64,000 nucleotides of DNA from Lewinella sp. LCG006 (GTDB lineage Bacteria; Bacteroidota; Bacteroidia; Chitinophagales; Saprospiraceae): NCBI RefSeq assembly GCF_040784935.1, contig NZ_CP160680.1:186001-250000 (forward strand), read 5' to 3'. Made by a program: the position numbers and the translations under genes. This document shows positions 5,345 through 16,203 of this stretch, in pieces; position 1 is the first letter of the stretch; each line of letters starts with the position of its first letter. The notes under the pieces are model-generated. The model made no database searches. It saw nothing but the letters and a program-made list of their open reading frames with translations, and was not told where the DNA came from.

Positions 5345-5497
5345 ATCTCAAGTTCTGTCTGCGTACCCTTCTCCAAAAACAGATCACCTTCCCATCACCA
5401 GCGCAGACAGGTCAGTTGCCGACGGCCAAAGCCTTTGGCGACGAGCTGTTGGAGCTGTCTCAAGAGGTTTACGACCTTTGATGGAGGTGTGTAGTGC
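5345..5497 (-). repeat. attC-like site closing cassette 8 (degenerate)
   Basis: The box at 5487-5497 (plus gtgtgtagtgc) lies one base past the stop of the serine-hydrolase gene and matches 10 of 11 bases of the unit's own start (plus complement of 6950-6937, GTGTGTAATGC), though its GTT is replaced by gag. Inside are a hairpin CTGTCTGCG/CGCAGACAG and a short palindrome GCCAAAG-CTTTGGC. No CGTT boundary is visible at the left end, so this is the weakest of the sites and may be decayed. Confidence 0.45.
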
Positions 5498-5498
5498 T

Positions 5499-6884
5499 TT
5501 AGTTTTTCCCAGTAATCAAAAATTCTTTTAAGGTAACCAAGGTTAACCAACCACCCGTAATATTATTTGCGGTAAAAATAAATCCTACGTCGCTCTCAGG
5601 GTAGTATCTATAGAAAGAAACAAAATCCCTCGTAATGCCAGTATGCCCATAGGATTCTCCAATATTGTCCTTTCTTAATTCAAAGCCCATTCCGCGGGAA
5701 AGAGATTCGTTTATTACGGTGTGTTTTCTAAAAATATCATCATACGTTTTTGGAGACAATCCGACTTTATTCCTTACCGCTATGGCGAATTTTGCAAAGT
5801 CAACAGGGTTCGTCATTAAACTAGCCGCCATGTTCGGTTCTTTAAAGCCCGACCTTGATGGAGTGCCTCTGTAAAAACCGTCGGCAATATTGTTTCTTAC
5901 ATAATCATTCGTTTTAAAATAAAAGTTGTTTAGCCCCAAAGGCTGTATTAATTCTTCTTCAAGGATAGTTTCAATATCCTTGTTAGTTAAGTGTACAAGA
6001 ACTCTTTTTAGATATTCAAAACCTTCACCGGAATAGCCAAATTGCATGCCGGGAGTAAAGAGCAAATCAAATTCGCCTTTTTCATTCCTTTCTGCCCAGT
6101 TTGGAAAACCTGTTTGATGGTTCAATACATGACGTGCAGTAATTAGCCTGTAACGGCTATCGTGTTCCACATCAGGAAATGGCAAGTATTTGTATAAGGG
6201 CTTGTCTAAGTCAATTACACCTTTCTCAACCAACCGCAGTACTACAAAGGAAAAAACTGGTTTGGTAATAGAACCGAATTCAAATATAGTAGACTCGTTT
6301 ACAGCTTCTTCTGTAATCGGATTTACAACTCCATAAGCTTTAGAATATACAACTTGTCCGTTCTTAATGATGGCGAGAGAAGCTCCGGGAACCTGATAGT
6401 AGTCCAGGTTATGAAGTATGAACTCATCCAACATACTTATGCTTGTACTATCTAAATTAAAAATAACCCCCTCTTTTGGTATTGTCGACTGCAGGATGAG
6501 CGTGTCAAGCACAAGGGTATGATGGTTCTGACTGACCGTAGGATCAATATTGAAAAATACTTTCGAAGAAGTCTCATTTATTCTAATAAAGCCTTGGTCC
6601 CAATCCCTATGCCAGTGATAGTTGCTATAAGGGGTAGCTACATAGTCTCCAACAGGTAATAACAGTTTATAATTTCCCGTAGAATCGACTTTTACAAACT
6701 TGATGAAGGCTGGGTCATACTTTGATTTAATGATAACCTTATCTGGAAAATGAATTATCGAGTCGTTTGACCACTTTACCAGACCGTTAACCATAATTGA
6801 ATCGATGGATTGAGCCTGAATTTGCAAGCAAAAAATTAAGCTACAGATTATCCCCGTTGGCAATAATTTATTAATTATGCTCAT
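5499..6884 (-). CDS. Secreted serine hydrolase, class C beta-lactamase fold (cassette 8)
   Basis: 461 residues with a signal peptide. The first ~140 residues form an extra N-terminal domain with no assignment, probably beta-rich. The hydrolase domain follows: nucleophile motif S205-I-T-K208, a YSG at 284-286 where class C enzymes have Y-x-N, and H414-T-G416 in place of KTG. This fits the beta-lactamase-related family (esterases, D-amino-peptidases, PBP-like) more than a true antibiotic-degrading enzyme. The ATG is 66 bases inside the cassette boundary at 6950 and the stop abuts the cassette-end box at 5487-5497. The enzyme probably acts in the periplasm or outside the cell; substrate unknown. 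Confidence 0.85.
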   Translation of the reverse strand: MSIINKLLPTGIICSLIFCLQIQAQSIDSIMVNGLVKWSNDSIIHFPDKVIIKSKYDPAFIKFVKVDSTGNYKLLLPVGDYVATPYSNYHWHRDWDQGFIRINETSSKVFFNIDPTVSQNHHTLVLDTLILQSTIPKEGVIFNLDSTSISMLDEFILHNLDYYQVPGASLAIIKNGQVVYSKAYGVVNPITEEAVNESTIFEFGSITKPVFSFVVLRLVEKGVIDLDKPLYKYLPFPDVEHDSRYRLITARHVLNHQTGFPNWAERNEKGEFDLLFTPGMQFGYSGEGFEYLKRVLVHLTNKDIETILEEELIQPLGLNNFYFKTNDYVRNNIADGFYRGTPSRSGFKEPNMAASLMTNPVDFAKFAIAVRNKVGLSPKTYDDIFRKHTVINESLSRGMGFELRKDNIGESYGHTGITRDFVSFYRYYPESDVGFIFTANNITGGWLTLVTLKEFLITGKN

Positions 6885-6950
6885 TTATAAATGTCTAAAA
6901 GTTAAAATAAAAATAGTTAGGTGTTTTCCTTTGGTTGCATTACACACAAC

Positions 6951-7083
6951 GTTTTTCGGTGCCGCGCAGTGTCTGCCTTAACCAATGTTGCGTCATGGTT
7001 TTAACGTGACCAATTTAGGGATTTTAACCCGAAGAATCAACGTTGTGGCGGCATTGACGCGGCAGCATTGTGGGGCCAGTGGC
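6951..7083 (-). repeat. attC-like site type A, closing cassette 7 (Fic)
   Basis: About 133 bases. The box at 7070-7083 (gtggggccagtggc) matches the start of its own cassette (GTTGGGGCCAATGGC at 8360) with one gap and one mismatch. Long imperfect arms (minus strand TGCCGCGTCAATGCCGCC against GGCAGACACTGCGCGGCA) bracket an inner palindrome around GGTTTTAACG. The left end reads CCGAAAAACGTT on the minus strand, then the next cassette begins. It is clearly homologous over its length to the site at 9249-9374. Confidence 0.7.
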
Positions 7084-7316
7084 GGTTTAAACAAACTGAT
7101 CTTTATGTCATCACTTCAAATTACTCATGAATTCAAAGTAAGTATACTATTTCAATAAGTTTCAATTCCACAAATCGACCTCAAACAATAAACGTTTTGA
7201 TAATCAATAGATTACAAGCAACAATTGTCTTCTGACCTTAGATTCCAACTTAAAATCATCCAATTTTTGTCATTCAATATTTAGTCGTTTATTCGTATTC
7301 TCCGTCTATTCGGAAA
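7084..7316. other. Non-coding 3' region of the Fic cassette
   Basis: These 233 AT-rich bases lie between the Fic stop codon and the attC-like site. I see no ORF, no strong hairpin and no recognisable promoter here; it may be the remnant of a lost gene. Confidence 0.5.
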
Positions 7317-8288
7317 TCAATTCTTCTTTGCTTTATATGTTGTATTTCGTTTATCACCGTGCTTCTCAAACAAACCCATCTCCACCCCTTCTTGTAAATC
7401 TCTACTTGCTGTGGCTGAAGAAATATCTTTAAACACTTCCATATAATCTTTCCTCGAGAATGACGCAATATTCATTGATTTAAAGTATCGTAATCGATCG
7501 TCTCTTTTCATTGTTCTATTACTAAATGATAACAACTCATCTAGTGATTGGCCAATTACTCTAAGCATGTATTCTATAAAAATTGTGGATTCGCCATGGT
7601 TATCACTTGCTCCTAGTACATCATAATATTCTCTTTGAGTATCACTTATTAATGTCTCAAATGGGAGATACTCAAATACAGGATATGTTTTCGACAGAAT
7701 CACACTTTGCCATAATCTTCCCATTCTTCCATTTCCATCCAAAAAAGGATGTATGAATTCCATCTCATAATGAAAGACACAACTTTTGATCAATAATAAG
7801 TCCTCTGTCTCTTTCAGATATTTAAACAAGTCACTCATCAAATAATCCACATTTGCTGCGGGCGGTGCTAAATACGCTACTTTATCTCCTTGAACAATAC
7901 CTACATTTTCAGTTCTGTATTGTCCTGGTTTTTTAATTAATCCCTTCATTAAAAGCTTATGTGCCAATAAAAAGGACTTTGCTGAATATGGATCATATTT
8001 CTCTAGGTTCTCATATACTTCAATCGCATTCTTGACTTCTAGAATATCTTCTTTAGGACCTATTACTCGCTTATTGTCGAGTATCGCTGTAATTTGGTCC
8101 TCAGTTAGTGTATTACCTTCAATCTTTAGAGAAGAATGGATAGTCTTTACCCTATTCCTTTTTCTCAATTGAGGTGAAGGTTTATCTAAGTATAGCGCTT
8201 TAGCTTCACCTAGTCGCTCAGATATTTGCGTTACTAACTTAAAAATTGTGGATGTGAGACTATACGGGGGCTTCACTGATACTATCAT
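7317..8288 (-). CDS. Fic-domain protein with self-inhibitory motif (cassette 7)
   Basis: 323 residues. The Fic active-site motif HPFLDGNGRMGR spans residues 180-191, complete with catalytic His180 and the nucleotide-binding GNGR, so an active AMP-transferase (or other UMP/phosphocholine-type transferase) is expected. An N-terminal helix carries S53-L-K-I-E57-G58, matching the (S/T)xxxE(G/N) inhibitory motif of class II Fic proteins, in which the glutamate blocks ATP gamma-phosphate binding until relieved. The last ~80 residues look like a winged helix, as in many stand-alone bacterial Fic regulators. ATG 8288 is 72 bases inside the cassette start at 8360. No antitoxin partner is encoded beside it, consistent with internal inhibition. 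Target unknown. Confidence 0.93.
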   Translation of the reverse strand: MIVSVKPPYSLTSTIFKLVTQISERLGEAKALYLDKPSPQLRKRNRVKTIHSSLKIEGNTLTEDQITAILDNKRVIGPKEDILEVKNAIEVYENLEKYDPYSAKSFLLAHKLLMKGLIKKPGQYRTENVGIVQGDKVAYLAPPAANVDYLMSDLFKYLKETEDLLLIKSCVFHYEMEFIHPFLDGNGRMGRLWQSVILSKTYPVFEYLPFETLISDTQREYYDVLGASDNHGESTIFIEYMLRVIGQSLDELLSFSNRTMKRDDRLRYFKSMNIASFSRKDYMEVFKDISSATASRDLQEGVEMGLFEKHGDKRNTTYKAKKN

Positions 8289-8360
8289 TTGATACTATCA
8301 AATATACTACTTTCCTTTTAGAATGGGAAAAATTAATAGGCAATAGCCATTGGCCCCAAC

Positions 8361-8598
8361 GTTTTTCGGGACATGTGAGGTTCGCAGCGAAGCGAAGAAG
8401 CTTGTGCAGCACGGGCTTGCCCTAAAAACGTTGTCCAAGATGCGGAGCGGAGTGGAGTATCTTGGTCAACGGATTTGTATATGAGCTGTGGCGTGTCTCG
8501 GCACGAACCTCTCCAAATAAAAACCGGCTTTGGAAGATCCTGCGGATTTTCCAAGTGAGGACTGAACAAGCCATAGCTTATATACTGTGTTGTGGTGC
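8361..8598 (-). repeat. Extended attC-like site, type B, closing cassette 6
   Basis: The box 8589-8598 (gttgtggtgc) is a perfect 10/10 match to the start of its own cassette (complement of 9248-9239). Inner arms GTATATGAGCTGTGG (8477-8491) and CCATAGCTTATATAC (8571-8585) pair 13 of 15. Left of them is the shared module: hairpin GTTGTCCAAGAT...ATCTTGGTCAAC (8430-8470) and arms CGTTTTTCGGG / CCTAAAAACG. Unlike the three other type B sites it lacks the inner AAAATTTT hairpin. A second small hairpin TTGGAA...TTCCAA sits in the loop. Confidence 0.7.
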
Positions 8599-9072
8599 GT
8601 TTTTTTTAACGTTTTGTAAATCCAAATATTTCTTAAAATTGTGTCGAAGTCGGCTTGTTAAAAACATTCCGAATAGATAAAATAAAATTCCCACTGCAAT
8701 TACAATTATTCCAAAAATTGAGGTTTCATTATTTAATTCTGTAATTATTATGAAAATCAGTCCTATTAATACAGTAAGAATAGGGAAAATAGCTAATACG
8801 GGATTTGGTTTAATTTTTAAATTTATTAATGTGTTTTTCCCTGATTTTATTATTTTCCCATATAAATATGCAGTGCTTCTTTTAAAATTTGGCACATACC
8901 ATTTTATATAAGTCCATTTATCATAAGTTTCAAACTCATTTTGACTTGTAAATTTCCCAACAAAGCTTAAGTTACTTTGCTTAAAGATGTCTTCAATTTT
9001 TTGCCTTAAATTATCTCCATTCAAATTCGAAGAGTAATTTATATTTTTGGTATTTAGTATTTTGTCAATCAT
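8578..9072 (-). CDS. Small two-helix membrane protein of unknown function (cassette 6)
   Basis: 164 residues. The N-terminal ~90 residues are soluble, with aromatic-rich strands (KWTYIKWYVPNF). Two membrane helices follow (about residues 93-111, ILTVLIGLIFIIITEL, and 118-138, IFGIIVIAVGILFYLFGMF), then a basic tail. I do not recognise a family; small membrane proteins of this kind are frequent as single genes in cassette-like loci. The reading frame runs through the cassette-end box (8589-8598), so the last residues, NAPQHSI, are encoded by the attC-like site itself. The 5' leader inside the cassette is 176 bases. Confidence 0.75.
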   Translation of the reverse strand: MIDKILNTKNINYSSNLNGDNLRQKIEDIFKQSNLSFVGKFTSQNEFETYDKWTYIKWYVPNFKRSTAYLYGKIIKSGKNTLINLKIKPNPVLAIFPILTVLIGLIFIIITELNNETSIFGIIVIAVGILFYLFGMFLTSRLRHNFKKYLDLQNVKKNAPQHSI

Positions 9073-9248
9073 TTTCTGTCAGTATTTATTATTATAAATT
9101 TTAAAAATTTTCCGTTTGCCTTTTAGTCCGAAAAGAATCATTTCAATTTTGATTTAAGATACATTTTTCAATTCCTCCACAAACATTTTCGGCATTCCAT
9201 TTCTCCGAATCTTCAGACTTTCTCGATTTTTCTTAAATGCACCACAAC

Positions 9249-9374
9249 GTCTCGGTGCCGCGCAGTGTCCGACTTAACCAACGTCACTACATGGTTTTAA
9301 CGTGACCAATTTAGGACTTTTTACTCGAAGAACCAAGGTCATGGCGGCATTGACGCGGCAGCATTGTTGGCTGC
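9249..9374 (-). repeat. attC-like site type A, closing cassette 5
   Basis: About 126 bases, close in sequence to the site at 6951-7083 (shared GCCGCGCAGTG, ATGGTTTTAACGTGACCAA and GGCGGCATTGACGCGGCAGC blocks). Its end box at 9366-9379 matches 11 of 14 bases of the start of its own cassette (complement of 10667-10654). It ends CCGAGACGTT on the minus strand, followed by the start of cassette 6. The size is within the range of classical attC sites. Confidence 0.7.
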
Positions 9375-9399
9375 AGTATTCTCCTCTTATCATTATTAC

Positions 9400-10296
9400 T
9401 CAAGACCTTTTTAGGACTTGAATCAATAAATAATCTTCACTTTCATAAATTATGTTAAATCCAAAATCTGTAGGAATAAAAATTTTAAATGGTCGGTCTA
9501 AGAGTATACTTTCCCTTTTTCCGTTACTCTCTATAATAATTTTTTTGACGCCTGCCGTTGTTTTTGATTCAAAAGCAATATCTCCATACGGCGATGAAAT
9601 GCTACCCGATCCTCTAACCTCTATATCCCAGTTCTCTGATACTGCAATTTCTATAGGAATACCCGGCAAAGTATACTTAACATAAAAAACAGCACCTTCA
9701 TAATTAACTTCTCTTGTTCTCTGTTCGATTTCATTGATTTTTTTCTCAATTGAGTTAAGCAAGGAATATCTTTTGCTTTTTCGATTTTCAAAAAGCTCTC
9801 CAACTCTTGCGCTCAATTCATTTGTTTCAGTAGTACCTGTCAATTTATCCCAAAAACCTAGTTTTTGATATGCTTGGTTTAAAGTTTTACTAGTTCTCTC
9901 ATAATCTCGGGCTATTCTCAAAAAATCTAGTGCTTCAATATGTAAACCATCAAATCCAGGAGGAGCAATGATTGTTCTAAAATAGTCATAGATTTGTTCA
10001 ACATTTGCTGTTTGTCTGTAATCATACCATTTGTTGTAATAAAAAAACCTTTCGTCAGTACTTCGCTTGCAAAAAACGTTCTCTCTACTTGATTGATACA
10101 GGATTCTTTTTTCGAAATATGTGATATTTTTTTCATACAAACCATAATGGCTGATTAAATTGTAGACTATATCAAAGTCGCTCATATACCCAGCCTCTCT
10201 TACATCTAGTTTTCCGCATATATCTATTTTCCCTACTTGGGCATGTAGAGGGAATTGGATTATCATTGTCACTAAAAGAATTTTCCAAGAACTCAT
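9400..10296 (-). CDS. Secreted protein of unknown function (cassette 5)
   Basis: 298 residues with an N-terminal signal sequence (MSSWKILLVTMIIQFPLHAQ). The central part (about 110-205) is helical with a likely short coiled coil (SLLNSIEKKINEIEQRTREVN), and the C-terminal ~90 residues read as alternating beta strands. Two or three cysteines occur near the N-terminus. I recognise no family or catalytic motif. It probably acts in the periplasm or outer envelope. Its stop is about 26 bases from the cassette-end box; upstream, a 370-base leader contains a MITE-like insertion. Confidence 0.75.
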   Translation of the reverse strand: MSSWKILLVTMIIQFPLHAQVGKIDICGKLDVREAGYMSDFDIVYNLISHYGLYEKNITYFEKRILYQSSRENVFCKRSTDERFFYYNKWYDYRQTANVEQIYDYFRTIIAPPGFDGLHIEALDFLRIARDYERTSKTLNQAYQKLGFWDKLTGTTETNELSARVGELFENRKSKRYSLLNSIEKKINEIEQRTREVNYEGAVFYVKYTLPGIPIEIAVSENWDIEVRGSGSISSPYGDIAFESKTTAGVKKIIIESNGKRESILLDRPFKIFIPTDFGFNIIYESEDYLLIQVLKRS

Positions 10297-10490
10297 AAGT
10301 AAAATTGTGAGGTTTTTTGAATAAGTTATATGGTAAAAAAGATCTACGAAAATTTTTAATAATTTCTAGGAGACTGAATAACATTGTCAAGTGATACAAG
10401 CTTAAAATAATTTCGCGCATTAGTCTCTATAAAAACTAAGAAAATGGTTCACACTTCCCATTACACATAGTTTATACCCTCTTATCTGAG
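10297..10490. other. Leader of cassette 5, non-coding
   Basis: AT-rich. I see no convincing gene; the minus-strand frame at 10172-10420 overlaps the real gene and has no family features. Confidence 0.4.
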
Positions 10491-10622
10491 TACAGGACAA
10501 AAGTTATTTTGATTAATATGAATGGCAATTTTACGCATAATCTGGCCTGAAAACCTACAGTGCAGGTCAAAATAAGGGTAGTTAAGGCTAATCATATTAC
10601 CTTCTCAAAGTTTTGTCCTGTA
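10491..10622. mobile_element. MITE-like inverted-repeat element inside cassette 5
   Basis: 132 bases bounded by terminal inverted repeats TACAGGACAAAAGTT and AAGTTTTGTCCTGTA (14 of 15 pair). There is no ORF inside. The immediate flanks (..gag and gaa..) give no clear target duplication. It lies in the leader between the cassette boundary (10667) and the ATG (10296). It resembles a non-autonomous IS derivative; the parent family was not identified. Confidence 0.6.
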
Positions 10623-10667
10623 GAATCCATCCATTCTTTCGTCAGTTTTTCACATATTGCCGCTAAC

Positions 10668-10899
10668 GTTTTTCAGGACATGCAAAGTTCGAAAATTTTC
10701 GACTGCGCTGAGAAAAAATTTTGAATTTCTGCATGTCCCGTGTTGTGCGAGGTTCGGAGCGCAGCGAAGAAGCTTGTGCAGCACGGGCTTGTCCGAAAAA
10801 CGTTGTTCAAGATGCGAAGCGCAGCGGAGTATCTTGGACAACTCTGGGCTGGGCGCAGGCCGAGGAACGAGGCTTGTCGCACAGCCTAAGTTCTGCGAA
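10668..10899 (-). repeat. Extended attC-like site, type B, closing cassette 4
   Basis: The box 10890-10899 (gttctgcgaa) is a perfect 10/10 match to the start of its own cassette (complement of 12460-12451). The cassette-specific stem GGCTGGGCG (10847-10855) / CGCACAGCC (10878-10886) pairs 8 of 9. The shared module follows: hairpin 10802-10842, a GTTGTGCGAGG...CTTGTGCAGCAC arm pair, and a long hairpin around AAAATTTT closed by CATGTCC. The minus strand ends GAAAAACGTT. Confidence 0.75.
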
Positions 10900-10903
10900 G
10901 GCC

Positions 10904-12436
10904 TTATTTTAATCGATCTTTCTCGTAAGCTTGATCAATAAGAGATGCTAGATACTCTAAATCATCTATTGATTTTAAGGTAATTTCATAATCACCATTA
11001 CCAAGGTGACCAATCGTTGAAACGTCTTTGGCTATCCCCCTTGGGTCTTCTAACTCACCAGCATTTAGATTCAACCATATCTTCAATGAAGACTGCTGTA
11101 ACTTCACATCTAATATATTTCCTGTTCCTATGAAAGAGATATAGTGCTTATTTACCTTAAGACTTACATCCTCTCTTGAAAGAATGTAATCCTTAATAGC
11201 TGTGTATATTTTAACTATCGCCTTATTTCTAATTTTATCAATATGATCTATTTCTTCTGTACGTACAAGCCCCCTAAAAAGCTCAATATAATCACTTACT
11301 CCTTCGATAGCATTTTCAAGGTGGCCTACTGGATATTCTATGCCAACACTGTGAACTAATGAATTTCTGACTCGTCGCAGTTCCCGTAACTGATTAAACT
11401 GAAAACTGCTAATTAGCCCGTCTTCCAAAAACTCCTTGATCATTTGTGGCATGAATCCCCTTTCTACATCGCCCTCATTCTGTTGATAATATACCTGTCT
11501 AATTACATCTTCTAATTCTTTCCATAAAATTATAAAGCGGCCAATTAAGTGGTTATTCTCCCCTGCAACAGCTTCTGCAACATTTTCAATGTCCTCTTCT
11601 GGAACGACTACTTCTTCAAGCTTATGAATTGCAGATTCTATAAACTCCTGAATGTCATCAATGAGTTGATTTACTTCTTCAAGGTCAATTTTACTAAAGC
11701 TTTTATTATGAGCAATTTTATTTCTTAAATCGTATAGTTTTTTCCATCTCTTATCAAGAAAGTCACCGTCACAATCAACGATAGTCTCAAAGTATTTTGT
11801 CCAATTACTGATTGGTAAGAGCGATCTAATTTCTTCAATATCAGTATTATCTAAGTTCTTGGCAGTTCTAAGTCTTTTAACAAGATCATCCCTATGAGAA
11901 GGATAATTCTCGCTAAACAAAAAATTTCTAAGCTGTATAAAATCTACGTTATTAAGAATGTTGACGTCTTTATTGTTCGAGTTTATAGACTTCTCTACAT
12001 CTACTGGAATTCTATCTGAGTCCCACCCCATCCCAAGATTTACAAGCATGAACTTTGTTAAAAGTTTTCTCATCAGATTTTCTATGGAATTGATTCTACC
12101 ATATGCTTGCTCAGAATAGTATCTTGATATATCATCCCATATCGTATACTGTATTCTATTCACCATAGAAAGAACTTTCCTAAGCCTCTTTAGTGCTGCC
12201 GTAAAGAGCGGCATTTCTGATTCTGACTCAATCCAAAGTCTTAGATGAAAATACACTGGTTTTTTTCCCGTAGACACATTTCCCTTTGCAACTCCATAAT
12301 TAAATTGGAAACCATTAAAGACAATTTGATCTCTATTGATTACAAAATCAGAATCTGACTGAATGAGATTCTTGAGGGCTTTTACTGTTTTACAGTTAAT
12401 ATCCTCTACAATGATCAAATATTCGACTTTATACAT
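10904..12436 (-). CDS. Protein with two HEPN-like RNxxxH motifs, possible RNase (cassette 4)
   Basis: 510 residues, no signal peptide. Two helical regions each contain the HEPN ribonuclease signature R-N-x3-H in the expected context: R238-N-K-I-A-H243 (DLRNKIAHNKSF) and R357-N-S-L-V-H362 (RRVRNSLVHSVG). The first is followed by a long helix (DLEEVNQLIDDIQEFIESAI), as in HEPN domains of the Swt1/RiboL-PSP kind. The N-terminal ~100 residues and the C-terminal ~90 residues are unassigned mixed alpha/beta. HEPN proteins are often toxins or antiphage effectors that cleave RNA, usually as dimers; two domains in one chain could form that site internally. The ATG is only 24 bases after the cassette boundary, a typically short cassette leader. 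Confidence 0.8.
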   Translation of the reverse strand: MYKVEYLIIVEDINCKTVKALKNLIQSDSDFVINRDQIVFNGFQFNYGVAKGNVSTGKKPVYFHLRLWIESESEMPLFTAALKRLRKVLSMVNRIQYTIWDDISRYYSEQAYGRINSIENLMRKLLTKFMLVNLGMGWDSDRIPVDVEKSINSNNKDVNILNNVDFIQLRNFLFSENYPSHRDDLVKRLRTAKNLDNTDIEEIRSLLPISNWTKYFETIVDCDGDFLDKRWKKLYDLRNKIAHNKSFSKIDLEEVNQLIDDIQEFIESAIHKLEEVVVPEEDIENVAEAVAGENNHLIGRFIILWKELEDVIRQVYYQQNEGDVERGFMPQMIKEFLEDGLISSFQFNQLRELRRVRNSLVHSVGIEYPVGHLENAIEGVSDYIELFRGLVRTEEIDHIDKIRNKAIVKIYTAIKDYILSREDVSLKVNKHYISFIGTGNILDVKLQQSSLKIWLNLNAGELEDPRGIAKDVSTIGHLGNGDYEITLKSIDDLEYLASLIDQAYEKDRLK

Positions 12437-12460
12437 ATCTCAATTTTAATTTCGCAGAAC

Positions 12461-12691
12461 GTTTTTCGGGACATGCGAAGTTCGAAAATTTTCGGCGCAG
12501 CCGAGAAAATTTTTGAATTTCCGCATGTCCCATGTTGTGCGAGGTTCGGAGCGCAGCGGAGAAGCTTGTGCAGCACGGGCTTGCCCGAAAAACGTTGTCC
12601 AAGATGCGAAGCGAAGCGGAGTATCTTGGACAACTCAGGCTACTGCGCAGCCCGACGAAGGAGGGTTGTCGCAGTAGCAAAGTTCTGTACA
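12461..12691 (-). repeat. Extended attC-like site, type B, closing cassette 3
   Basis: The box 12682-12691 (gttctgtaca) is a perfect 10/10 match to the start of its own cassette (complement of 14276-14267). The cassette-specific stem GCTACTGCG (12639-12647) / CGCAGTAGC (12670-12678) is perfect. The shared module hairpin GTTGTCCAAGAT...ATCTTGGACAAC lies at 12594-12634 with a perfect 12-base stem, followed by the arms AACGTTTTTCGGG / CCCGAAAAACGTT and the AAAATTTT hairpin. Confidence 0.75.
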
Positions 12692-12695
12692 GTTT

Positions 12696-14171
12696 TCATA
12701 TAGATTCACCGTCATTAAACGGAACTCCTTGACCACCGTTGTGTTCCCATCCACAACTATGCGCAAACTCATGTAAGACTACTTCAGCAATTCCAAATCT
12801 TGCATCTAAGAGAATCTCATTTATTCTATTTATGCAAATGTGTATATGTTTTGAATTAATACTTAAAATTACAAGTTCGCTGTTATGACCTAAGTCTGGA
12901 CAGTCTGAGCATTTTACGAGTACATTAGGGTCCGTTAGTCTATCTCTAATACAATTCCTTAATTTCAGATCAGTTATGGTGTCGTCAAGGATATCTAATG
13001 CTCTCCAAATTCCTTTAGTGATTGCCCCCTTATACCCTTTGCAGTCACCTAACACTCTAACTCCGGGAGTTATAGAATCCGAAATATTATTAGAGCTCCA
13101 CCCTATATTTCTTCGCCAGTAAAACTCCTGCACCCTACCATTTCCATTTTTCAACTTTCCTACTATATGCTGTGATTGATCTGTATGAACATAGCCAACG
13201 GGATCCGTTGTAAATTTCTCTCCTTCCAATCGATTGGATAAGTTATTGTGTTTCCAACCTCTATTCCTTTTCCACCATAATTCATGTACATCCCCCTCCT
13301 GATCTCTTGCAATCACATGCTGAGTTCCATCTGGATGAGAGTAGCCATATGGTCGGCCAATTATTTGTAGACCATTTACATCATCGGATAGATTGTTTTT
13401 GCGCCAACCTTGATTCCGTTTCCAATAAAACTCTTGGATTTTCCCATTACTTAGTCGCCCAATTATATGCTGAGACTCATCCGTGTGGACGTACCCTATT
13501 GGATCCGAAACAAACCTTACTCCTCCTAATCGATTAGATAGGTTGTTGTGTTTCCACCCCAAATTCCTTTTCCACCATAATTCATGGATATTACCCTGTC
13601 TATCTCTTGCAATCACATGTTGAGTTCCATCTGGGTGAGAGTAGCCATGTGGTCGGCCGATTATTTGCAGACCACCTATATCATCGGATAGATTGTTTTT
13701 GCGCCAACCTTGATTCCGTTTCCAATAAAACTCTTGGATTTTCCCATTATTTAATCGTCCAATAATATGTTGAGACTCGTCCGTATGAACATACCCTATT
13801 GGGTCTGAGGCAAACTTTATCCCTCCTAATCTTTCGGATAAGTTGTTTTTGCGCCAACCTCCTCCTATTCTCCACCAAAGCTCATAAATACTCCCATCTT
13901 GACCTCTTCCAATAACGTGTTGTGTTCTATCAGGATGTGAATATCCAAATGCAGGACCTAATAATTTGATCCCACCCACTTTTTCACTCAAATTGCTAAA
14001 GTTCCATACGCCATTTCGCTCCCACCAATACTCATAAATATCCCCATTTGCTTGAACACAAATTATGTGTTGTGTGCCAATCAGCTCTTCATCACTAGCA
14101 TATGTTGAAAATACACTTACTGGTTGAAGATGAGAATACCCGAACGGGGTGTAATGTGAACCAAACCGCAT
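12696..14171 (-). CDS. Beta-propeller-like repeat protein with C-terminal metzincin motif (cassette 3)
   Basis: 491 residues, no clear signal peptide. Residues ~1-370 are about seven tandem units of ~50 residues built on 'GYxHxDxxQHxIxxxxxGxIxExxWKRNxGWxxNNLS'; some adjacent copies are nearly identical in DNA. The pattern (W-rich strand, GW, terminal D/N-L-S) resembles PLL-like/DUF346 lectin propellers. The C-terminal ~120 residues hold a zinc-protease motif, H467-E-F-A-H471-S-C-G-W-E-H477 (HExxHxxGxxH), only about 14 residues before the stop, so any Met-turn would be missing or lie upstream. It may be a carbohydrate-binding peptidase; export is unclear. The stop abuts its attC-like box. Confidence 0.8.
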   Translation of the reverse strand: MRFGSHYTPFGYSHLQPVSVFSTYASDEELIGTQHIICVQANGDIYEYWWERNGVWNFSNLSEKVGGIKLLGPAFGYSHPDRTQHVIGRGQDGSIYELWWRIGGGWRKNNLSERLGGIKFASDPIGYVHTDESQHIIGRLNNGKIQEFYWKRNQGWRKNNLSDDIGGLQIIGRPHGYSHPDGTQHVIARDRQGNIHELWWKRNLGWKHNNLSNRLGGVRFVSDPIGYVHTDESQHIIGRLSNGKIQEFYWKRNQGWRKNNLSDDVNGLQIIGRPYGYSHPDGTQHVIARDQEGDVHELWWKRNRGWKHNNLSNRLEGEKFTTDPVGYVHTDQSQHIVGKLKNGNGRVQEFYWRRNIGWSSNNISDSITPGVRVLGDCKGYKGAITKGIWRALDILDDTITDLKLRNCIRDRLTDPNVLVKCSDCPDLGHNSELVILSINSKHIHICINRINEILLDARFGIAEVVLHEFAHSCGWEHNGGQGVPFNDGESI

Positions 14172-14276
14172 AACTAATTATTATTTTAAACATTAAATAT
14201 ATCACAACTATCAACATCATAAAAAACTACACCATGAATTATCACCTGGAAGTTATAATTCATAATTGTACAGAAC

Positions 14277-14575
14277 GTTTTTCGGGACATGCGAAGTTCG
14301 AAAATTTTCGGCGCAGCCGAGAAAAATTTTCGAATTTCCGCATGTCCCGTGTTGTGCGAGGTTCGCAGCGGAGCGGAGAAGCTTGTGCAGCACGGGCTTG
14401 CCTGAAAAACGTTGTCCAAGATGCGCAGCGAAGCGGAGTATCTTGGACAACGCTTAGTGCAGCCGCAGCCCCACAATGGATCGCTTTCCAACTGCAATTC
14501 CCCTCAATAAACAGCTCTTTTCCCCCGAAGCAAATCCCTCTTGTGGGGTTGTCGGTCTGCACCTTGTTGGGCGTT
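14277..14575 (-). repeat. Extended attC-like site, type B, closing mini-cassette 2
   Basis: The box 14566-14575 (gttgggcgtt) matches the start of its cassette (complement of 14795-14785, GTTGGGGCGTT) except for one extra G. Inner arms GTGCAGCCGCAGCCCC (14457-14472) and GGGGTTGTCGGTCTGCAC (14545-14562) pair well. The shared module sits at 14277-14451, with a perfect 12-base stem at 14411-14422/14440-14451. Confidence 0.65.
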
Positions 14576-14581
14576 TGTTTT

Positions 14582-14749
14582 TCATTGCTCACACGGCGGA
14601 CATATCCCACCAACATCAGCATATCCACTTGCGCGGTGGGAATTCTTCTTTTCAGCTCCCACTAATGCGGACATTTCACATCCCATCAAGGTAGAACTTT
14701 TGCGGCACTTCTTCTCACCGTTTTCTGGGGGATGCTTTCCTTCAAGCAT
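14582..14749 (-). CDS. Possible 55-residue cysteine-containing protein (mini-cassette 2)
   Basis: The frame from ATG 14749 encodes 55 residues with several cysteines, ending GGICPPCEQ, and stops seven bases before the cassette-end box. The same frame is open further upstream but that would begin inside the neighbouring attC-like site. There is no recognised family and no clear ribosome binding site. The DNA also shows hairpins (around ATGCTT...AAGCAT and TCCCACC...GGTGGGA), so the unit could instead encode an RNA. Confidence 0.35.
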   Translation of the reverse strand: MLEGKHPPENGEKKCRKSSTLMGCEMSALVGAEKKNSHRASGYADVGGICPPCEQ

Positions 14750-14795
14750 TTTACTAGCCCCTGGGTGATCATCACAAAAGCTATAACGCCCCAAC

Positions 14796-14852
14796 TCTGG
14801 CTTGTGTGCAGGCAGAGGAACGAGGATTGTCACACAAGCTTTGTTAGCGGAA
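14796..14852 (-). repeat. Short attC-like site closing cassette 1
   Basis: 57 bases. The box 14843-14852 (gttagcggaa) is a perfect 10/10 match to the start of its own cassette (complement of 15823-15814). A 9-base perfect stem GCTTGTGTG (14800-14808) / CACACAAGC (14831-14839) encloses the loop. It lacks the extra hairpin module of the type B sites and is the most classical attC in size and shape. Confidence 0.75.
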
Positions 14853-14874
14853 GTCCTATTTTAATCATAACTAA

Positions 14875-15774
14875 TTATTTAAGGAGTTTTATCCAATCGT
14901 TTCTTATTCGATATCTCCTTACATAGTAAGAATCAACAGCAATATCCCTATGTCTAGCTGGACGTAATTTAATCTGATTAGAAAATATATTCAAAATATC
15001 ATCTTTTGTAGCGTTTGTTCTATTGCTGATTAGCTCAGTTGATACTATTTCACCATGACAGTTTAGACCAAATTTTAATGAAAAAACACCCTTTTTATCT
15101 TTGAGGTGGATCAATTTTAACTTTCTATAAAATTCACTTTCATTCACAATACTAGCTAACTCATCGCATATGTTAAATACCATTTCTGATTCACAGAAAT
15201 CAGCTCTATAAATGGCCGCATTATTAACTAATTCATTGATGTAATTACCATATTTTCTATACTGCATATTCACTTGCTCGCCAGGACTAATTATGATAGG
15301 ACTATTCTTACAATAGTCTTGTAAAATGTAAGTAAAATAGTTACAATCATTACCAAATTGTGTTTCTGGTAAGTCCTCTATTGAATCACAGCTACTATAG
15401 GTTACATATTTTACACATTCACTATTATTATCTGATGGCATGCCAATTAGAACTCGACTTTTAAATGGTGGAATGTAATACCGATGTTCTATCCCTCCAA
15501 TTTCATAAATGATGACCAAACCCTCTTTATACTCCATAGGTATTTCAAGTATTCCATCTTGGATCTCCCCTATATATCTGTATTCCCTGGTTTGACTATT
15601 GATTATAGCAACTTTTTCGATAGAAACCACAAACTCTTCCAAACGATCGAGAGCTAGTTGATTATCATACTGTATTATTCTGATCTCTCTATCACTTGCG
15701 AATAATTGTTGAGGAATCACGCTAACAGTACAAACTATTAATAGAACCAGTCTTTTTTTAGCATTTACTTTCAT
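14875..15774 (-). CDS. Secreted protein of unknown function with TonB-C-like end (cassette 1)
   Basis: 299 residues from ATG 15774, which begins a signal peptide (MKVNAKKRLVLLIVCTVSVI then PQQLFAS). A longer frame to 15900 was rejected because it would cross the cassette boundary at 15823. The N-terminal half is beta-rich; six or more cysteines occur in the middle. The last ~80 residues (GVFSLKFGLNCHGEIVSTEL, then RYRIRNDW) resemble the TonB C-terminal/energy-transducer fold seen in many small Bacteroidota periplasmic proteins, which is a weak assignment. The leader inside the cassette is 49 bases. Function unknown. Confidence 0.75.
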   Translation of the reverse strand: MKVNAKKRLVLLIVCTVSVIPQQLFASDREIRIIQYDNQLALDRLEEFVVSIEKVAIINSQTREYRYIGEIQDGILEIPMEYKEGLVIIYEIGGIEHRYYIPPFKSRVLIGMPSDNNSECVKYVTYSSCDSIEDLPETQFGNDCNYFTYILQDYCKNSPIIISPGEQVNMQYRKYGNYINELVNNAAIYRADFCESEMVFNICDELASIVNESEFYRKLKLIHLKDKKGVFSLKFGLNCHGEIVSTELISNRTNATKDDILNIFSNQIKLRPARHRDIAVDSYYVRRYRIRNDWIKLLK

Positions 15775-15823
15775 CCTACAATCAAGTATAATTTTATGTT
15801 CATTCTTTCTAATTTCCGCTAAC

Positions 15824-16203
15824 TTACTTATATGCGAAAGTCCCCCCCTTTTTGCCGTACTTTTACAAACCCATCCTTTGGGGTACCAACCTCCACTCAC
15901 TGCCTTAACAGTAATCGGCGCTGGCTTTCCTCTTTTTTAAAAACGCCATTTTGCTGTGTAGTCCTGCCGAGGCAGTATGTCCAGTAGTATGCAGGGACTG
16001 CTTGCAGTCTGGAAAAGGGGTGCCGGTATTGTGAATAATTTAAGCAGTATTCAGCTCCGGAAAACAGCAAAAAAGAATAGATAAGGAGAGATGAGCCAGC
16101 GTGTTGGTCAACTTTACTTTACAAGTATAATGTATTTTGCAAGAAAGTACAAGCCCTCTTATTGGCCGTGGCTAAATAGGCATAAATCAATTATCTTCAC
16201 CTC
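15824..16203. other. Intergenic region at the right border of the cassette array
   Basis: No ORF of note. The cassette array ends here: the bases before GTTAGCGGAA on the minus strand (TATAAGTAA) do not resemble any attC-like site in the block, so this could be an attI-like site or a deletion scar. A TATAAT hexamer at about 16125-16130 could serve the plus-strand gene at 16204. Confidence 0.4.

Follow-up and report, generated by a model that had tools for sequence, protein, structure and literature searches.

How did a gene-cassette array of the integron type come to lie in a Bacteroidota genome with no integrase beside it? The question is raised by a locus of Lewinella sp. LCG006, analysed here in a window of 64,000 nucleotides (contig NZ_CP160680.1, positions 186,001 to 250,000 of the forward strand). 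Plain coordinates are those of the window, and positions given in Mb or on C1 are those of the single-contig genome (G000). The array occupies the minus strand from 15823 to 5345. We consider it very likely that the array belongs to a capture system of the integron type in Bacteroidota whose integrase is not IntI, and that it is one of several arrays in a genome lacking an intact copy of that enzyme. At the level of sequence, the position of attI, the pairing of each cassette end with its own start, the covarying hairpins, the sharing of cassettes cut at GTT, the association with an integrase, and the absence of the IntI-specific insertion are established.

Architecture of the window array

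Every unit of the array starts with GTT and closes on the reverse complement of its first bases, after which come a hairpin site and the next GTT. Between 5300 and 15900, nine exact 10-mer pairs of own start and own end (GTT...AAC; the count is equal on either strand) were found, vs. 0.44 on average (at most 2) in 50 dinucleotide shuffles and 0–3 in five control stretches of the window. Four of the nine close gene units (15823–14843, 14276–12682, 12460–10890, and 9248–8589), three close gene-less palindromes (14451–14411, 12634–12594, and 12593–12461), and two link one palindrome copy with the end of another copy. Imperfect closings, identified by eye, are close to the own start in the units beginning at 14795, 10667, and 8360 and degenerate in the unit beginning at 6950. 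A sequence-only reading had described eight one-gene GTT units with such pairing, 10/10 in four, close in three, and degenerate in one. The pairing proved real and the description of the units was otherwise correct, but a gene was evident in seven units and not in the eighth (14795–14452), and four palindromic gene-less pairs interspersed among the cassettes (14451–14277, 12634–12461, 10842–10668, and 8470–8361) had gone unmentioned. The features of the locus are as follows.

15821–16129, minus strand: leader of about 300 bp, ending in an attI-like core at about 15870–15824 (...TTTGTAAAAGTACGGCAAAAAGGGGGGGACTTTCGCATATAAGTAA, then GTT)
14796–15823, minus strand: cassette 1, gene 15774–14875 (299 amino acids), R'' 14852–14843, tail 14842–14796, 10/10 pairing, covarying hairpin
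14452–14795, minus strand: cassette 2, without evident gene, starting GTTGGGGCGTTATAGC..., R'' 14575–14566
14277–14451, minus strand: palindrome pair, members 14451–14411 and 14410–14277, own-end pairing, with one mismatch in the second
12635–14276, minus strand: cassette 3, gene 14171–12696 with DUF346 repeats (491 amino acids; PF03984, 44 bits), attC-like site 12691–12635, 10/10 pairing, hairpin
12461–12634, minus strand: palindrome pair, repeat copies with own-end pairing
10843–12460, minus strand: cassette 4, gene 12436–10904 for a HEPN_Swt1/DUF5655 protein (510 amino acids; Pfam), attC-like site 10899–10843, 10/10 pairing, hairpin
10668–10842, minus strand: palindrome pair, first member pairing with one mismatch
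9249–10667, minus strand: cassette 5, gene 10296–9400 (298 amino acids), longer attC-like site at about 9376–9249 with imperfect R'', read directly
8471–9248, minus strand: cassette 6, gene 9072–8578 for a probable membrane protein (164 amino acids), R'' 8598–8589, tail 8588–8471, 10/10 pairing
8361–8470, minus strand: palindrome pair, second member shortened, one mismatch in each
6951–8360, minus strand: cassette 7, gene 8288–7317 for a Fic protein (323 amino acids; PF02661), attC-like site at about 7079–6951, R'' with a 1-nt gap
5345–6950, minus strand: cassette 8, gene 6884–5499 for a beta-lactamase-family serine hydrolase (461 amino acids; PF00144, 154 bits), closing site degenerate from about 5497

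The cargo includes defence-like genes: the Fic protein of cassette 7 matched PADLOC SoFic with 161 bits, and the cassette 4 protein matched PDC-S18 with 104 bits across its DUF5655 part. A LiaF-TM match to the cassette 6 protein was weak and below the Pfam cut-off, and Pfam searches at E ≤ 0.01 returned no family for the proteins of cassettes 1 and 5. The 3' end of the cassette 6 gene (8578–9072) crosses its own closing box R''.

Complementary own core sites flank an imperfect hairpin at the unit ends, as in attC sites. In an alignment of nine attC-like sites (seven from this genome and two from G002, a genome of the same genus), 93.5% of the cells are paired, compared with at most 46% when the alignment is slid, and 9 of 12 pairs have changed on both sides; the L''/L' stems vary between sites with pairing kept. 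A covariance model built from these sites detected, at E ≤ 0.01, 15 places in G000 (7 of them training sites), 26 in G002 (2 training), 6 in G001, and 2 in G003, with 150 candidates scored per genome and the weakest matches near the threshold. A 6-kb contig of G002 (C53) holds five such sites, with four units back to back that close on their own starts. An Rfam scan gave matches below the gathering scores only. Moreover, the match of the R stem to its own start falls to 0.12 at position 11, vs. 0.52 at position 10 and about 0.6 at positions 12–14, in a profile of 124 rows that include chance pairs and in which positions 1–9 were selected. The recombinase box may end at this mismatch.

The palindrome pair consists of a 41-bp and a roughly 134-bp member, gene-less and running from GTT to AAC with GTT directly after, and lies between cassettes or directly after attI. 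Copies are present in the window, at 1.91, 4.17, 4.18, and 5.11 Mb of the genome, and in G002, whose version has changed in both arms (GTTGCCC/GGGCAAC); none was found in G001 or G003. The pair is possibly a non-autonomous hitch-hiker of the integrase.

The entry site and its integrase

The DNA before the first GTT of the array ends in ...TTCGCATATAAGTAA, with GTT directly after. This attI-like core recurs at 4.172, 1.916, 5.107, and 4.665 Mb of the same genome and on contigs C6, C8, C17, and C79 of G002, where the C8 and C79 sites are near-identical contig ends and perhaps one locus. Of the nine, the window, 1.916 Mb, 5.107 Mb, and G002 C17 have unrelated first cassettes directly after the core, and the other five have a version of the palindrome. 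Within this set of nine, a leader of about 300 bp is common only to the window, 1.916 Mb, and 5.107 Mb. This leader (16129–15824 in the window; 1.9156 and 5.1066 Mb) precedes three integrase-less arrays and is far longer than the attI core; it may bear a promoter or be a sign of entry-site copying. Further cassette units with attC-like sites lie at 6391522–6396191 of C1 and, on the minus strand, at 6544403, where they follow an attI-like ATATGAGTAA and GTT.

Integrase sequence upstream of the core is common to 4.172 Mb, 4.665 Mb, and G002 C6. On G002 C6 the integrase frame is intact (575 codons), its stop lies about 40 bp before GTT, and a palindrome pair and gene units follow in the same orientation. 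At 4.17 Mb a recombinase pseudogene precedes the attI-like site, with residues 51–114 and 408–574 left and 115–407 missing, and at 4.66 Mb a remnant of residues 533–575 persists in two frames. Judged by position and sequence alone, an attI adjoining the integrase gene serves as the entry point at G002 C6 and at other loci of the family. In a set of 41 loci, whose selection took arrays into account and which includes some chance pairs, 29 have their first unit no more than 300 bp from the integrase.

The genome of the window has six matches to the integrase profile, and the five listed do not cover the N-terminal part. None of the recombinases listed for the genome lies inside the window, and the genome yielded no intact integrase of the cognate type. 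The earlier statement that the array stands without an integrase thus agrees with these results, both at the locus and, for an intact cognate-type copy, genome-wide; the proposed search for an integrase and more units yielded other arrays, but of the cognate integrase only a pseudogene and a remnant, and no IntI. With these as the copies found, the window array is probably now fixed. A different recombinase stands near another site of this genome: an attC-like site (C1, 6399408–6399466) lies just before a tyrosine recombinase frame (6399564–6400409) that overlaps a transposase-like frame, which we take to be IS91-like. This recombinase has a near-copy at 6.409 Mb, and attC may be its target.

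Cassette sharing and the spread of the integrase family

Matches between arrays of at least 180 bp and at least 90% identity numbered 37. A GTT common to both arrays marks the start of 17 and the end of 27, vs. 5% and 8% for random internal positions; the 37 are not independent, as most involve arrays of this genome and G002 and copies of the palindrome pair make up many of them. A unit of the 4.17 Mb array matches the gene-less cassette 2 of the window, together with its palindrome pair, at 96% identity over 524 bp, with breaks at GTT on both sides, and a unit on G002 C17 matches it at 86% over 542 bp with an identical starting GTT. The sharing reaches further: a 1441-bp cassette is 97.8% identical between Flavobacterium enshiense (L103) and G413 (L244), whose integrases are 34.6% identical, and a 1059-bp match between L233 and L235 is 97.6% identical. 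The attC of the first cassette at 1.91 Mb and an attC of a Flavobacteriaceae genome (L110) share 88% identity. The sequence-only reading had named two comparisons that could overturn it. As far as each could be run, the outcome favoured the reading: identity breaks clustered at GTT, and the arrays compared had no run of two or more cassettes in common at 90% identity; at the orthologous place in G002 (C7), the window array had no match. Its integron-like cassette logic is strongly supported by the own-end pairing, the common attI-like entry site, the covarying hairpins, and the cassette sharing with GTT breaks.

The integrase alignment was searched as a profile against genome contigs, and the best 80 named loci were retained. 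Named members from several Bacteroidota families have the same architecture 3' of their integrase, with exact pairs exceeding shuffles in Rufibacter (L127, 8 vs. 1.0), F. enshiense (7 vs. 0.6), and Seonamhaeicola (L119, 7 vs. 0.8), compared with 0–2 exact pairs at non-Bacteroidota loci. Units of the related arrays mostly measure 400–1600 bp, and their tails are often about 53 or 118 nt long. The family is not rare: within the class of the window, 83 of 149 genomes, as counted by hand, had a profile match at E ≤ 1e-90, including some in which the N-terminal part is lacking. From this class 40 family loci were fetched, 31 of them with at least 1 kb of 3' DNA, together with 20 other recombinases as controls, 19 of them usable. 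The 31 family loci contained 63 pairs, vs. 13.6 in shuffles, and 13 chained units in eight loci, vs. 0.1; in 10 of the 31 the first unit starts 45–136 bp after the integrase. The 19 controls contained 14 pairs, vs. 7.6, with two chained units in a single locus and none starting within 1 kb. The link between array and integrase is real, although not every family member has a detectable adjoining array. Many family integrases among L221–L260 lie at contig ends (9 of 40 have less than 1 kb of DNA on the 3' side), which would be expected of arrays that disrupt assembly.

The gap between Arg I and HxxR is 90–96 residues in all 81 Bacteroidota family rows, vs. 133 in all 10 IntI proteins measured (12 given), showing that the IntI insertion is absent from the family. 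IntI forms a separate clade with 100/100 support, and the family integrases fall outside it. The G002 integrase scored 209.8 bits against TIGR02249 (cut-off 265) in a match split into two stretches; the family integrases are not intI products with the IntI-specific additional domain. Family members mostly carry HARP-like N-terminal modules, and a fold search with the N-terminus placed 4o66 and an XPB–forked DNA complex on top (E 0.063). Three recombinases, L104 (Undinarchaeales), L133 (Peregrinibacteria), and L139 (Patescibacteria), group with IntI (99/95) yet lack the insertion (span 91–92) and are possible intermediates.

Mechanism, rival explanations and known integrons

In the mechanism that we propose, a non-IntI tyrosine recombinase would capture small gene circles, each with one attC in which the R'' box, the L''/L' hairpin, and the circle's own R' start would fold into one stem. 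The recombinase would join attC to the attI directly 3' of its own gene, cutting between AA and GTT, and cassettes would therefore accumulate downstream in integrase orientation. Such recombination would take place in the hosts, presumably with folded single-stranded attC and double-stranded attI as substrates, and the HARP-like N-terminal modules may read structure in the role of the IntI-specific insertion. We lean slightly towards a broader proposal, that a second class of integron exists throughout Bacteroidia. Its recombinase would stand apart from the IntI clade, and the role of the insertion would have passed to between one and three HARP-like modules, which belong to a type of domain that recognises DNA forks and the junctions of single- and double-stranded DNA.

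Several observations weigh against these proposals. With one mismatch allowed, the pair signal in the window is weak (26, vs. a shuffled mean of 15.7 and maximum of 31). Exact pairs are absent from the 3' DNA of several Bacteroidota loci among the best 80 named, 21 of the 31 family loci of the class lack a unit close to the integrase, and one control recombinase (L262, G352:C73) has two chained cassette-like units downstream, perhaps an orphan array. Of 29 attI sites, only 8 have a significant strict inverted repeat. The family clade has a support of 86/95, with the bootstrap not settled, and its catalytic part is near IntI because the best PDB match of the integrase model in Foldseek is the integron integrase IntI4 (2a3v). 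As for the N-terminus, Pfam HARP (PF07443) exceeded its cut-off in one of six proteins (the G002 integrase, 26.2 vs. 25 bits) and was below it or absent in the other five, a HARP match was obtained in 2 of 21 N-termini at E ≤ 0.1, and the likeness to 4o66 is weak (profile E 1.1, fold E 0.063).

The same cassettes could instead be recombined Xer-style on ordinary double-stranded core sites, with the hairpins in another role such as transcript ends. The lack of the IntI insertion, a catalytic part close to XerA/Xer, and a perfect inverted repeat resembling a Xer core site in some attI sites speak for this, but we regard it as unlikely: the stems of L''/L' differ between sites yet keep pairing, and the R pairing spans 9–10 bp and resumes past the near-constant mismatch at position 11, which fits a junction-spanning stem and not a short double-stranded crossover. 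XerA/XerC/XerD-type recombinases share the length and motifs of the catalytic domain but lie outside the family clade, except for control row L268, whereas the family has its HARP-like N-terminus and attached arrays.

The sequence-only reading had placed the locus among the clusters of attC sites lacking integron integrases (CALINs). Like a CALIN, the window array has no adjoining integrase, and its site anatomy resembles attC; true IntI, moreover, is frequent elsewhere in the phylum, in classes other than that of the window. However, related arrays lie directly downstream of recombinases without the IntI-specific insertion, and the same attI core joins an integrase of this type in G002 and two remnants in the genome itself. 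The cognate integrase type is not IntI, and the window array retains an attI-like site. No protein of the genome exceeded the IntI cut-off, and one genome in at least 73 of the class did (hand count; nine genomes without a match unlisted). That exception, G031, belongs to the same taxonomic family as the window, and its protein (C40, 3592–4530; 421.9 bits) is a true IntI. The array is therefore not a CALIN of a known IntI integron, and descent from a classical IntI integron once present in the genome appears highly improbable. Least credible is the view that no integron is involved and that dispersed palindromic repeats between genes, such as miniature inverted-repeat transposable elements or repetitive extragenic palindromes, gave cassette-like pairing as a by-product. 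The 41- and 134-bp palindromes do occur at many places in this genome and in G002, but the pairing is unit-specific and above shuffles, common cassettes end at GTT, and the architecture recurs 3' of the integrase in several Bacteroidota families whose arrays gave no match to the palindromes in the between-array comparison.

The proposed capture system with a non-IntI integrase shares with IntI integrons the tandem, mostly one-gene cassettes in one orientation, the GTT insertion point, the attI entry, the R''-L''-L'-R' hairpin with own-start/own-end pairing, and the IntI4 structural match. It differs in the absence of the IntI insertion, the position of its integrases outside the IntI clade, and their mostly HARP-like N-termini. 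The core site of IntI integrons is a fixed GTTRRRY heptamer, whereas the R box of the Bacteroidota arrays is 9–10 bp long with a mismatch at position 11. The attI immediately downstream of the integrase gene is a further likeness, to archaeal integrons, whose integrases are reported in passages of PMC9668308 to carry the IntI-specific additional domain, unlike those of the Bacteroidota family.

In the sections consulted, the IntegronFinder 2.0 survey (PMC9024848) names one complete integron in Bacteroidetes proper, in Salinibacter, and PMC8618304 includes Bacteroidota among the phyla listed with integrons. At least one integron survey (PMC2426708) retained only integrases with the IntI additional domain or patch and would therefore exclude the Bacteroidota family. 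PMC8138268 terms the insertion essential, though incompletely conserved in its integron-like subgroup. No earlier description of the Bacteroidota system was found in the literature searched, with subscription papers and preprints outside its scope.

These findings suggest a second kind of integron, which present detection methods may have overlooked. If this is true, the integrase of a cassette-capture system is present in over half (83 of 149) of the genomes sampled from the class. A mechanistic question also becomes testable, namely whether hairpin recombination requires the IntI insertion or can proceed with a replacement for it.

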